NCBI GenBank assembly: GCA_030532405.1
Contig: JAUNLF010000013.1
Coordinates: 1 to 50,310 of the forward strand
Source: Actinomycetaceae bacterium
Lineage (GTDB): Bacteria > Actinomycetota > Actinomycetes > Actinomycetales > Actinomycetaceae
Length of the DNA stretch: 50,310 nucleotides
Direction of reading: 5' to 3'
Positions 39,814-44,481 of the stretch are shown here, one piece after another; position 1 is the first letter of the stretch, and each line of letters begins with the position of its first letter. Both the position numbers and the translations under genes were made by a program. The notes beneath the pieces were generated by a model, which saw nothing but the letters and a program-made list of their open reading frames with translations, had not been told where the DNA came from and ran no database searches.

Positions 39814-41601
39814 TTATGGGTTGGGCCAGGGGTTGGTTTGGCAGCCGCGCATGTTGAGGGTTTGTTGGAGCATGACGGGTGCTGTGGCGCCGGGGGCGGG
39901 GCAGGGTGCGTGGCCGTGGCCGATGGCGTGACCAACTTCGTGGGAGATTACGTATTGTCGGTATTCTTCGATTGTGCCGCCGGCTTGCAGGAAGGGGCTG
40001 GCGCCGTAGGCCCAGCGTTCAATGTTGATTGCTGTGTATTGGTTGTTGTTGCAGGATGTTTGCCCCATGGTTTTGAGGGGCGCGCAGAGTTTGTCGACGA
40101 GGTTTGGGGATGCGAGGATGATGCGCGTGTCTGCTTTGGTGGGGTCGTTGATTTGTTGGAAGTTGCGTCCCCAGCCGTGCTTGTTGTTGAGGGTTGCGGA
40201 TACTTCGCGTGAGAATTCTTCGCCTTCGACGGGTAGGCCTTGGTCGATTTCGATGGTGTAGGTGAAGGGCTCGCCTTGGCCCGTGGTGAGGCCGTCGGGC
40301 GCGTTGATGAGGGTGGGTTTGCCGATGCCTTTGCCGATGACGTCGGTGGAGGTTAGGCCTCCGGAGAGTGTTTTTGTGGGGCGCGGGTCGAAGATGCGCC
40401 CTCGTGTTCCTTGTTTGCCGATGGCGATGAAGCGGCTTGAGGACGCTCCTGTGAGTCGGTTGGCTGTGGCGACGGTTGTGATGGCTTCTTTGGTGGAGGT
40501 TTCTGGGGCGATTGGGATTAGTGGGCCTGTGGAGGTGCCGGCTGCGAGGATCAGGCTCGCGGGGTCGTCGATGGGCACGAGTGAGGTTGTGACTGTGGGG
40601 TCGAGGTTGCGTGCGGACGCAGCGTTGAGCGCGATGGTGGTGGTGGAGGATCCTGTGTAGCGGCTTTTCATGAAGTCGCGGGAGACTTCGTCTAGTAGGT
40701 CGCTACTGATTTTGCCTGTGCCGACGACGTATTCGGGTTGTAGTTCGGCGAGGAGTGTTTTGACTTCGTCGGTGGTTTTTTCGTCGATGAGGACGATTGG
40801 GCCTTGGCCGATTGAGCCGGCAACTGCGGCTAGCGGCATGATTGCGGCGATGCTTTGGTTTGCGTCGATTAGGTAGACGCGTCGCGGCTTGTTGGGGTAG
40901 AGGTTTTTGGCGAGTTGGATTGATGTGTGGATCGCGTCGGGCGCGTCCCACGTTTGGGTGGTGACTTGTTGCGGGGTTTTGTTGCCGCTTGTGAGGTTGT
41001 TGTGCGCGGTTTGGGATGCGTCGCGTGCGGTGTTGATGGTTTGGGTGGGGATGGAAGCTTGGCCGCCGACTGCGATTATGGTTTTGGGACGTAGGCGTCC
41101 AATTTCGGAGATGATTCGTTCGTTGATTGCGCCAGTGTTGTCAGTAAAGAGGACGGGTCCAGGTCGCTGTGATTTGACGGCCGCGGTGATGCCTGCGGAT
41201 GCGGCTGGGTCGTGGGGGTTAACTAGGTAAACGGTTTCGGCGGTGTTTGGGAACGCGTGGGTGGATGCGGTGATGGACGCTTCGATAGGGTCCTGGTCGT
41301 AGCGGACCATGCTGATTTCACCGTCAGAGTTCGCGGCAACCACCACTGCTTGCGGAACCCGCACGTCTGCGGTTGCCTGCGAGAGTTGCACTGCCGCGCT
41401 CGCCTGCGGAACTTGCGCTGCCGCGCTCGCGGCTCCCACCTGCGGAACTTGCGCTGCCGCGCTCGCGGCTCCCGCTTGCGGAACTTGCACGTCTGCGGTT
41501 GCGGTGCCCGCTGGGATTGCGGCGAAGAACATGGAAAACGGCAGGATGAGCGCCGCCCCCGAAATTAGTGGACGGAACTTCTTCAACTGCTTTGTTGTCA
41601 T
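39814..41601 (-). CDS. Secreted CW_binding_2 / DUF3152 zincin-like protein
   Basis: 595-residue exported protein. A signal peptide (FRPLISGAALILPFSMFFAA) is followed by a 12-residue tandem repeat (QVPQxGAASAAA). Two cell-wall-binding-repeat-2-like units follow (GPVLFTDNTGAINERIISEI / RLRPKTIIAVGGQASIP; GPIVLIDEKTTDEVKTLLAE). The C-terminal DUF3152 domain has a metzincin-type zinc site HEVGHAIGHGH (H-E-x2-H-x2-G-x2-H class) and paired cysteines. DUF3152 proteins are surface or secreted putative metalloproteases; coupling to wall-binding repeats suggests a tethered enzyme. ATG 41601 is used; GTG 41613 is an in-frame alternative with a too-close GAGGGG. Codons favour CTA, CCA and GCA. Confidence 0.85.
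   Translation of the reverse strand: MTTKQLKKFRPLISGAALILPFSMFFAAIPAGTATADVQVPQAGAASAAAQVPQVGAASAAAQVPQASAAVQLSQATADVRVPQAVVVAANSDGEISMVRYDQDPIEASITASTHAFPNTAETVYLVNPHDPAASAGITAAVKSQRPGPVLFTDNTGAINERIISEIGRLRPKTIIAVGGQASIPTQTINTARDASQTAHNNLTSGNKTPQQVTTQTWDAPDAIHTSIQLAKNLYPNKPRRVYLIDANQSIAAIMPLAAVAGSIGQGPIVLIDEKTTDEVKTLLAELQPEYVVGTGKISSDLLDEVSRDFMKSRYTGSSTTTIALNAASARNLDPTVTTSLVPIDDPASLILAAGTSTGPLIPIAPETSTKEAITTVATANRLTGASSSRFIAIGKQGTRGRIFDPRPTKTLSGGLTSTDVIGKGIGKPTLINAPDGLTTGQGEPFTYTIEIDQGLPVEGEEFSREVSATLNNKHGWGRNFQQINDPTKADTRIILASPNLVDKLCAPLKTMGQTSCNNNQYTAINIERWAYGASPFLQAGGTIEEYRQYVISHEVGHAIGHGHAPCPAPGATAPVMLQQTLNMRGCQTNPWPNP
41405..41490 (-). repeat. 36-bp tandem repeat encoding the AQVPQ-repeat region
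   Basis: Two nearly identical 36-bp units (41405-41440 and 41441-41476) and a partial third, coding for 12-residue repeats just after the signal peptide of the DUF3152 protein. Degenerate copies flank it. Confidence 0.85.
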
Positions 41602-41898
41602 GGAGCGATTCACTCCCCTCGTTTCCCAGGCCGTATTCGCATTTGTAAACTATGTTACGCAAGTTTGCCACACGTCACACAACGCAAATTATTTACTGCT
41701 GAACCTGTTGACGCAAGACTTAAATCTTGAATACTCAACACGCCGCGCGGAACCGTTATCAAAATGTAATCATACCGCGCATTACGGGCGAGAATCCACT
41801 TCCGCACTTCTGTCCGTTCCCGCCCGCTTCAATGCTTCGATCCACTTCGAATCAAATACGAAATTGGGCCGAGATCGATATGTCCCAAAAAGGAGTTT

Positions 41899-44154
41899 TT
41901 ACTCCTCCGCGAGATCCATTAGTTTGCGCAGTACGCGTGCGCCGTCGGCGCGCAGGCCGTCGTGTTGATACTCATTCGTCACCCACGTGCGCACGCCAGC
42001 CAGCTGCGCCGTTTCCAGTGAAAGCCCCGTCGGCACAAACATGTCCTCAAAATAAACCGCCGCAGCTGCAGGAACTTCGTTCGACGCCAAATGCTCCGGA
42101 TAATACAACGGCCCCCACTCCGTGAAATCCGCCAACCTGTGCGCCAACTCGCGCAATGGCCGTAACGCCGGATCTTCCTCAAACACAAACGGGTAAATAT
42201 GCTCACCCGTCAAATAAATGGGATCACCCGAATCGTAATCCGGCTCCGGAGCAAAACCCGCCTCCAACTGCGCAACAGACAAACCAAACCCTGGCGCCCC
42301 CACAAAACCAGAACCAGCAGAGAAGGAAGACGCGTCACCAGAGAAAGCAGCCGCGTCAGCGGGCAAGGAAGCAGCGTCAGCCGAAGAATCGGAACGGAAA
42401 CCAAGCTCGCCCTCGTACAATAAACGCGACGCAGCCCACGACGTGGACCGTCCCTGAAGGGCGGGAGTGGATCCAGCGTAAATCGTTTCGTGTAGGAGGG
42501 CGTACATGGGTGAGGCGCCCATCGAGATTTGGCGGGCCGCCATGTCTAGGAACTCGGTGGAAAGGCGTTTTTCGCCGCGGACTGTGACGAATGGACCCTC
42601 GAAGAAGTAATGCAACTGGTCGAACCCGGTCGTCGTGCCAAGCATCATCCCGAGCATGCGCAGGCGGCGTGAGGAGAGGCGCTCACCGGTTGGGAGGAGC
42701 TCCTCGTGCGAATCAAGATGCCTCAACACGTCACGCAACACGCCACGATCCGCGGGATACCGGGCGAAAAACACCTCATTACGAGCCGCAGTCGCGCGAT
42801 ACGTCAACCGGTAAATATCATCCACGCTCGTCAGGCCAGGCAGGCCGCCCGTGAAATAAACGCGTGAAAGGCCCTCAGGGTGCATACTCAGGTAGGTCGT
42901 GTTGATAAAACCGCCATACGACTGGCCGAGGCTCGCCCACGGCCTCCCACCATTAATTAACGCACGCAGGCGCTCCGCGTCTTTCACAATCGAATCCGCG
43001 CGGAAATGCTTCACATAATCCACCTGCTCGTCGACAGAATCGAACTCAGACAGGGTGAGCTCATCCAAACGTGACGACAACCCCGTACCGCGCTCATCCA
43101 TTAGGATCACGCGGTGCGTCTTGAGGGCCTCACCAATCCACCCATCCCGAAAATTCCCAGGACGCGGGCCACGACCCCCAGGACCTCCCTGCATGAAAAT
43201 GAGGGCGGGCTGGTCCGTGTTCGACCCATCAGCATCCAGCGTAAGTTCGCGCGCAAACAACACAATCTGCCTGCCACTCGGATCCGCATAATCCAACGGA
43301 ACACGAACCCGATGCTCCGTCACATACACCCCGTGCTGCCTATACGACACGCGCGTATGATCCGGCACATCCTCCTCCGGGACTGGGGCCGGGGTTGGGG
43401 TTGAGGCCGACGCGGGGACGGGTGCCGGGGTCGACGCGGGGGTTTTGCTTGCGCGTGTAGGCGCAGATTCCGAAGTCTGCACAGGAGCCGTTTTTGCGCG
43501 AGCAGTCGACGTTGCCGAGGTCGCATTACCACGCGCAGGGGTTGCGTTCGCGCGCACAGGAGCGGGCGCCGCAGATTGCGCCGGTTCGCCCTCATCAAAC
43601 GAAAACAAAGAAGGGGCGTCAGAAGCAGGAGAGGAAGTAGAGCCCGCCACAGGAGAGGAAGATTCAGCGGAGGGTGCGTGGGAGAAGCCGGGGCCGGTCT
43701 TCACTTCGCGGCCGTCGCGGATGGCTTCTGAAGCGCCGCGAGCGTAATCATCAGCCTTCTCGTTCATCTCGTGATTCGCGTGTCCGCGGACCCACTCAAA
43801 CGTGACCGAAATGCCGCGCCGCTTACGATCGTTAAGCTCCTCGTCAAGAGCCTCCATGATCTCCCGATTCGCAACCGGCTTCCCATCAGCCTTCTTCCAA
43901 CCCTTACGCTTCCAGTTGAAACGCCACTTCGTGAGCGCATTGATCACGTACTGCGAATCCGCGTAAATGAGAACATCCTCATCCACACCCCTCGTTTGAC
44001 GCAGAAAATCAAGAACCGCGAGAAGCTCCCCCACATTGTTCGTACTTTGCGCGAGGGCGCCCGCACTCCAATTCTGCTCGTCCATAAACCAAGCCCAACC
44101 CGCCGGGCCCGGATTGCCAAGAGAAGATCCATCAGTCGCCACAATCAAAGTCAT
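41899..44154 (-). CDS. RNase HI fused to proline iminopeptidase-like alpha/beta hydrolase
   Basis: 751 residues in one uninterrupted frame. Residues 1-150 are a complete RNase HI that degrades RNA in RNA-DNA hybrids: D8 (ATDGSSLGNPG), E43, D66 (YADSQYV), H125 and D135 (KADDYAR). Residues 150-275 are a Pro/Ala/Ser/Thr linker. The remainder is a serine aminopeptidase of the S33 family: MQGGPGGRGP oxyanion loop, MDERGTGLSS, nucleophile elbow LGQSYGG and catalytic His in YQHDGLR. A second Ala/Ser-rich insertion interrupts the hydrolase. No signal peptide. The start is leaderless (TAGAAT, six bases, ATG). The combined role is unknown. Confidence 0.9.
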   Translation of the reverse strand: MTLIVATDGSSLGNPGPAGWAWFMDEQNWSAGALAQSTNNVGELLAVLDFLRQTRGVDEDVLIYADSQYVINALTKWRFNWKRKGWKKADGKPVANREIMEALDEELNDRKRRGISVTFEWVRGHANHEMNEKADDYARGASEAIRDGREVKTGPGFSHAPSAESSSPVAGSTSSPASDAPSLFSFDEGEPAQSAAPAPVRANATPARGNATSATSTARAKTAPVQTSESAPTRASKTPASTPAPVPASASTPTPAPVPEEDVPDHTRVSYRQHGVYVTEHRVRVPLDYADPSGRQIVLFARELTLDADGSNTDQPALIFMQGGPGGRGPRPGNFRDGWIGEALKTHRVILMDERGTGLSSRLDELTLSEFDSVDEQVDYVKHFRADSIVKDAERLRALINGGRPWASLGQSYGGFINTTYLSMHPEGLSRVYFTGGLPGLTSVDDIYRLTYRATAARNEVFFARYPADRGVLRDVLRHLDSHEELLPTGERLSSRRLRMLGMMLGTTTGFDQLHYFFEGPFVTVRGEKRLSTEFLDMAARQISMGASPMYALLHETIYAGSTPALQGRSTSWAASRLLYEGELGFRSDSSADAASLPADAAAFSGDASSFSAGSGFVGAPGFGLSVAQLEAGFAPEPDYDSGDPIYLTGEHIYPFVFEEDPALRPLRELAHRLADFTEWGPLYYPEHLASNEVPAAAAVYFEDMFVPTGLSLETAQLAGVRTWVTNEYQHDGLRADGARVLRKLMDLAEE

Positions 44155-44223: not shown

Positions 44224-44481
44224 ATGAAAGAGACGATAGCGGGACGAGAGGTTACCGAGGAACAGATCTCCAAATGGGTCGACGAGGCTGAGGCCGGCTA
44301 CGACCCCGCCGAACTAAAAAAGCGCGGGCGCCCCGGGCCGGGACGCCCCGGACGCGGGACTTCACCAAGCCAAGTCGTAGCCGTCCGGTTCACCTCCGAA
44401 GAGTTAAAACAAATCGACGACCGCGCCCGCGCCGCAAACATTTCAAGGTCCGCTCTAATTCGCGAAGCTGTCCTATCGTGA
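44224..44481 (+). CDS. Ribbon-helix-helix (CopG-type) DNA-binding protein
   Basis: 85-residue protein. The C-terminal 40 residues form an RHH domain: beta strand QVVAVRFTSEE, helix ELKQIDDRARAANI, turn SRSALIREAVLS. The N-terminus (ITEEQ-like VTEEQISKWVDEAEAGYDPA) plus a basic Gly/Pro/Arg linker (KKRGRPGPGRPGRG) resembles an AT-hook. Many such proteins are antitoxins, but no toxin gene adjoins it. The frame extends upstream to 43771 as shadow of the RNase H gene; the dyad and -10 element fix ATG 44224. It is divergent from the RNase H fusion and 113 bases ahead of the ABC-class ATPase gene. Confidence 0.78.
   Translation: MKETIAGREVTEEQISKWVDEAEAGYDPAELKKRGRPGPGRPGRGTSPSQVVAVRFTSEELKQIDDRARAANISRSALIREAVLS

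Follow-up and report, generated by a model that had tools for sequence, protein, structure and literature searches.

A genus-specific RNase HI–peptidase fusion carries a conserved LF element, a candidate clamp-docking motif, in its disordered tail

Why should an RNase HI be joined in one reading frame to a peptidase, and what might the segment between them do? The question is raised by a gene on the minus strand (41899..44154) of a 50,310-nucleotide stretch of DNA from an Actinomycetaceae bacterium (contig JAUNLF010000013.1), which as a whole is called the window here. The gene starts with ATG, stops at 41899-41901 and encodes 751 amino acids: an intact RNase HI (residues 1-157), a Pro/Ala/Ser/Thr tail (158-263) and an intact peptidase (264-751). 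The RNase HI domain itself, residues 3-142, lies at 43729..44148, the tail, which follows a conserved GPGF, at 43366..43683, and the peptidase, a serine alpha/beta-hydrolase, at 41902..43365, all on the minus strand. An AlphaFold model of the full protein, built with 14 aligned sequences, has two folded domains and a mean pLDDT of 73. The pLDDT drops below 50 across residues 156-259, where the chain is predicted to be disordered, and residues 583-623 are also modelled with low confidence. Around the latter, an Ala/Ser/Gly-rich insertion of ~40 residues (586-628; 42271..42399, minus strand) interrupts the peptidase of the window's protein and of no other aligned row. The preliminary description had read the gene as a single 751-codon frame joining two complete enzymes through a linker of 125 residues. 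The Pfam matches to residues 3-142 and 316-473 bear out the two enzymes, and the linker length was a fair estimate, with ~106 residues after GPGF (158-263) and ~121 when the count starts where the Pfam match stops.

The fusion is real and is a trait of one small actinobacterial genus, placed with Gleimia europaea, G. coleocanis and Actinomyces urinae. All 11 genomes searched within it gave matches, and in 10 of them one open frame without a stop runs through both parts. Because these ten share the single frame, the fusion is neither an artefact nor a matter of chance. One of the ten, G003, is seen on a contig that begins inside the RNase H domain, leaving the last 30-odd residues of that domain visible. 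A sequencing frameshift or misassembly as the source of the fusion is ruled out, as separate assemblies agree. The frameshift check in relatives that had been proposed at the outset finds the fusion throughout the genus save in one species, where the genes are split. In that species (genome G008, locus L035), a 239-codon RNase HI frame is followed by ~160 bases and then by a 466-codon peptidase in another frame.

Pfam PF00075 (RNase_H) matches residues 3-142 with 110.8 bits against a cut-off of 25.8 (E 7.7e-32). The best NCBIfam match, NF005116, aligns positions 6-156 of 161 with 151.9 bits, below its cut-off of 280. The RNase HI equivalog NF001236 (113.6 bits, cut-off 160) and the bifunctional RNase H/acid phosphatase NF005567 (35.8 bits, cut-off 326) likewise score under their thresholds, and the 751-residue protein has no Pfam match to His_Phos. 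Because the scores lie below the NCBIfam equivalog cut-offs, the half is named RNase HI by its domain and active site. Residues D8, E43, D66, H125 and D135 sit where the preliminary description had placed them and are identical in every genus row that covers the RNase H domain. We take the catalytic roles of D8, E43, D66 and D135, and that of H125 as the loop His, from E. coli RNase HI, whose structures are among the Foldseek matches of the AlphaFold model.

The peptidase half contains both motifs picked out earlier, GQSYGG with the nucleophile S412 and QHDGLR with H731. S412, D704 and H731 do not vary among the rows covering the peptidase domain (the residue aligned at 731 in the RNase-only row L035 is meaningless) and form a probable catalytic triad, in which D704 is the likely acid, given its near-invariance and its suitable spacing from H731. 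Abhydrolase_1 (PF00561) matches residues 316-473 with 51.1 bits against a cut-off of 25.8 (E 1.9e-13). Scores stay under the cut-offs for the serine aminopeptidase S33 family (PF12146; 19.1 bits, cut-off 27), the prolyl aminopeptidase equivalog (TIGR01249; 22.9 bits, cut-off 259.75) and pro_imino_pep_2 (20.5 bits, cut-off 167.65). Judged by these profiles, the second domain is a relative, not a member, of the prolyl aminopeptidase equivalog. A sequence comparison at E 1e-5 finds two DM3 chains (8jgm/8jgn; E about 1e-91) as the only solved relatives, and 8jgn is also the best Foldseek match of the model (TM 0.87 on the target, 36% identity). These matches point to a DM3-like S33-type hydrolase. 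As to a second peptidase copy in the window's genome, just a 35% match to residues 283-379 occurs elsewhere. Both fused enzymes probably work, and presumably independently of each other.

The preliminary description overlooked, in the linker, a conserved LF within an element that resembles a beta-clamp motif, DAPSLFSFDE (residues 179-188; 43591..43620, minus strand). We took as the tail the sequence after GPG[W/F/L] and obtained expected counts by shuffling each tail. The genus tails are hypervariable, with a median pairwise identity of 0.15 over 55 pairs. LF is nevertheless present in 11/11 of them, against 1.11 expected (1.47 for [LM]F), values that serve as a yardstick and not as a probability, since the shuffles ignore kinship. 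Eight of the 11 have the form LFSF. The contexts include MDLF, IDLF, LDLF, WDLF, DMLF and PSLF; the window's own APSLF lies within the predicted disordered tail, and the unfused RNase HI of the split species ends ...QDTLF-stop. The codons used for LF within the genus are TTG-TTT, CTG-TTC, CTC-TTC, CTC-TTT, CTA-TTT, TTA-TTT, CTG-TTT and CTT-TTC. This synonymous variation indicates that the amino acids are what is kept.

Unfused relatives in a second genus mostly carry LF at their C-terminus. In another genus of the same family, here called g11, RNase HI is found in 31/31 sampled genomes, and 24/30 loci end exactly in LF-stop, against an expectation of 0.033 over the 27 tails of at least 8 residues. 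The ends include QTDALF, GTLF and ETLF. The six loci without a terminal LF comprise three that are almost tailless, one that runs off the end of the locus, one with a GNAT domain and one with an unrelated tail; when they are dropped, all 24 phenylalanines in the tails belong to the terminal LF. LF is the top dipeptide by observed minus expected count in both genera (11 genus tails; 24/30 g11 tails). Other genera of the family are thinly sampled. Three of them (G011/L093, G012/L094, G019/L064) have an RNase HI that possesses neither LF nor a tail worth the name, and a search for RNase HI in a further member of the family (G048) gave no match at 1e-10. Among 23 further loci sampled across the order, nine tails are shorter than 8 residues and 6/14 of the others contain [LM]F, where 2.78 would be expected. 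Of 15 tails sampled across the class, 10 are shorter than 8 residues, and one of the remaining five contains [LM]F. Single further members have clamp-like elements, EELDLF (L058), EPDLF and a C-terminal AQALHLF. Overall, LF is a strong feature of two genera and a scattered one outside them. Closest to the clamp consensus among the sequences that we saw is MPEQFSLF, at the N-terminus of a distant RNase HI (L066), upstream of its RNase H domain.

The bacterial clamp motif is given as QL(S/D)LF, with much variation, in the available text of PMC9690074. The tail LF resembles it and is, by this likeness, a candidate DnaN-docking motif; the window's APSLF is without the consensus Gln and the hydrophobic second residue, and LF alone is invariant. 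These departures count against clamp docking, as do the three same-family genera whose RNase HI lacks the motif and the use of SSB by the E. coli enzyme. According to the part of PMC8228993 at hand, the C-terminus of actinobacterial NucS reads [E/K]-[L/Y]-[T/R]-L-F, and C. glutamicum NucS needs its C-terminal region for clamp binding. NucS ends [E/D]xRLF-stop in 11/11 genomes of the genus. The reading that we favour, with reserve, is a clamp-tethered RNase HI whose tail gained a separate peptidase, the fusion being genus-specific and the peptidase trimming peptides. The disordered RNase HI tail of the genus and of g11 would most likely dock its LF in the hydrophobic pocket of DnaN, as NucS does, which would bring RNase HI to forks and to Okazaki junctions. 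The tail would have been there first; the gene for a DM3-like S33-type peptidase, until then on its own, would have come in frame behind it in the ancestry of the genus. The resulting chain would be RNase HI, tether and peptidase, with the LF motif retained internally and the peptidase half keeping its general peptide-trimming job. Both the DnaN binding and this order of events are what we infer.

In the titles and opening lines of abstracts surveyed, we found no description of an actinobacterial RNase HI that binds the clamp, a weak absence given the thin coverage of subscription papers. The available texts of PMC8228993, PMC11253446, PMC9690074, PMC12448304, PMC11352351 and PMC3984812 hold no mention of an RNase HI–clamp link for actinobacteria, and that of PMC7466739 contains neither 'clamp' nor 'DnaN'.

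The history of the fusion was read from relatives and trees. Among 8 sampled genomes outside the genus, six have clear matches to both parts, and the peptidase and RNase HI are apart in all six (G011, G012, G014, G016, G017, G018). In G011 and G012, which belong to the same family, the two genes are not neighbours; in G011 they are ~26 kb apart on one contig, and a second peptidase lies on another. No peptidase partner on RNase HI was seen beyond the genus in 71 loci (a few incomplete) from 68 genomes, where partners were read by eye save for eight tails scanned with Pfam; this agrees with the earlier remark that an aminopeptidase partner is unusual. In the peptidase tree, the split species L035 sits beside two fused ones (96/96). 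Its split is disfavoured as the ancestral state, since it nests with two fused species, and this nesting favours one fusion followed by a later split, although a clade of all fused proteins is not rejected (p-AU 0.087). The RNase H tree, of 37 rows (10 from the genus, 12 of the 30 g11 loci and 15 others) with some very long branches, leaves the genus ungrouped, with 3 changes, at least 2 of them forced by well-supported branches. A single RNase H clade for the genus is not rejected (p-AU 0.116), so that two origins or a replacement of the domain are possible.

Could the two genes simply have been joined and kept by drift, with an idle linker and an incidental LF? The best-studied parallel invites this view: in the available text of PMC7466739, the RNase HI-CobC protein of M. 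smegmatis (MSMEG_4305) is judged to be drift-fixed and its linker, which varies greatly, to be probably of no significant use, and L035 manages without the fusion. An incidental LF is hard to square with its presence in 11/11 tails of ~15% identity and at 24/30 C-termini in g11, in codons that vary synonymously. The conservation of LF explains the tail and not the attachment of the peptidase, however, so drift still accounts well for the fusion step; neutrality of the whole arrangement is a serious but minority possibility. Another view grants LF a function and gives it a different target, another replisome protein, or makes it a C-terminal signal. The flanks leave room for this, as they range over QTDALF, MDLFSF and PPALF with LF alone invariant. 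A C-terminal signal would hardly survive internally, but all 10 fused copies retain LF, and LF also closes the NucS of these genomes; we regard a target other than DnaN as unlikely.

The chain could also be made as two proteins from an internal start, or be cut by proteolysis within the linker, and in either case the fused form would have no action of its own. The linker is predicted to be disordered in the AlphaFold model, and in the window's gene a GGAGG stands ahead of a GTG before the peptidase anchor. An SD-like sequence with an in-frame ATG or GTG occurs within 12 codons before that anchor in 4/10 fused genes, and SD-like starts are found in 6/10 when the last 60 codons are counted. Their position and start codon differ among species and 4/10 genes have none, and Glu codons would easily yield GAGG and GGAGG. 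No conserved internal start before the peptidase was found in the 10 fused genes, and we think it rather improbable that two separate products are the working form. The suggestion in the preliminary description that the peptidase serves a nucleic-acid-linked task draws on the physical link between the enzymes. One such task might be to trim peptides or proteins at R-loops. Nothing else points there: the two parts lie apart in the six outside genomes, and other RNase HI tails bear unrelated partners (GNAT, DUF4440, histidine phosphatase). Such a task is very improbable. The clamp-tethered RNase HI with a peptidase acquired behind its tail remains the account that we prefer.

Other partners are attached to RNase HI tails in related bacteria. 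Eight of 16 tails were scanned with Pfam, and two of these gave no match. A g11 protein (L116, genome G098) is an RNase HI–GNAT acetyltransferase fusion (E 2.6e-14) whose sole LF lies inside the GNAT domain. In other families of the order, L058 and L062 join RNase HI to DUF4440 (E 2.8e-16 and 9.4e-11), and the tails of L059 and L061 resemble DUF4440 by eye only. An LF element stands between RNase HI and the DUF4440 or DUF4440-like domain in L058, L059 and L062. L095 carries a histidine phosphatase (E 1.1e-39). The tails of L054, L056, L057 and L060 end in what looks by eye like a ribbon-helix-helix; L054 has no Pfam match, L060 has a NikA-like match below the cut-off, and all Pfam matches of the L060 and L063 tails lie below the curated cut-offs.

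The set of tail partners (DM3-like peptidase, DUF4440, GNAT, RHH-like helices) suggests a further reading. Folds such as these often form dimers or higher oligomers. The title of PDB entry 8jgn describes DM3 as a compartmentalised hexamer, and the RNase HI–peptidase fusion could therefore be multivalent. RNase HI of the genus, g11 and some relatives would be clamp-tethered, its tail repeatedly gaining partners for oligomerisation and not for catalysis, and the fusion would be a six-headed hexamer. If so, the hexameric peptidase would present six copies of RNase HI and as many clamp hooks, a high-avidity grip on the dimeric clamp. We hold this reading to be doubtful.

The fused gene has two close neighbours. 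A small ribbon-helix-helix gene (44224-44481, plus strand), with NikA-like and RHH_1 matches over the cut-off, is divergent from it at a distance of ~70 bases. On its other side, a gene for a DUF3152 protein with Ala/Val/Pro/Gln-rich repeats near its N-terminus (39814-41613, minus strand) adjoins it.

Recruitment of RNase HI to the fork is documented for E. coli, where it goes through SSB and not the clamp (available part of PMC11253446); for actinobacteria, we found none in the literature accessible to us. A tail hook of the NucS type points to a candidate second recruitment route, and the 'meaningless linker' of an RNase HI fusion becomes a candidate functional element. The unfused, fused and side-by-side forms make up a natural series on why unrelated enzymes join.

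The fusion by itself is a lineage-specific relative of known RNase HI fusions. A literature description of an RNase H–proline iminopeptidase fusion was not found, the lone co-mention being in a reference list and subscription coverage being thin. Four known systems bear comparison with it. The mismatch nuclease NucS/EndoMS is, like the RNase HI considered here, a nuclease with a short C-terminal ...LF motif, but it has another fold, and its clamp binding is known for C. glutamicum NucS. RNase HI of g11, with 58-62% identity over the RNase H query, shares the GPGW extension and the variable LF tail; it has no peptidase, its tail stops at LF in 24/30 loci and one locus is the GNAT fusion. DM3 (DANGEROUS MIX 3), a plant alpha/beta hydrolase, is the closest solved relative of the peptidase half and, unlike the window's fusion, has no RNase HI. 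The precedent rightly named in the preliminary description is RNase HI-CobC (MSMEG_4305, Rv2228c, SCO2299), which is also actinobacterial and also has an N-terminal RNase HI, a variable linker and an unrelated C-terminal hydrolase. The domains of MSMEG_4305 are dissociable in vivo (available text of PMC7466739). In RNase HI-CobC, the partner is a histidine phosphatase, and the linker of one such protein, L095 of genome G012, is without LF, whereas the window's fusion has a peptidase partner and a linker with a conserved element.
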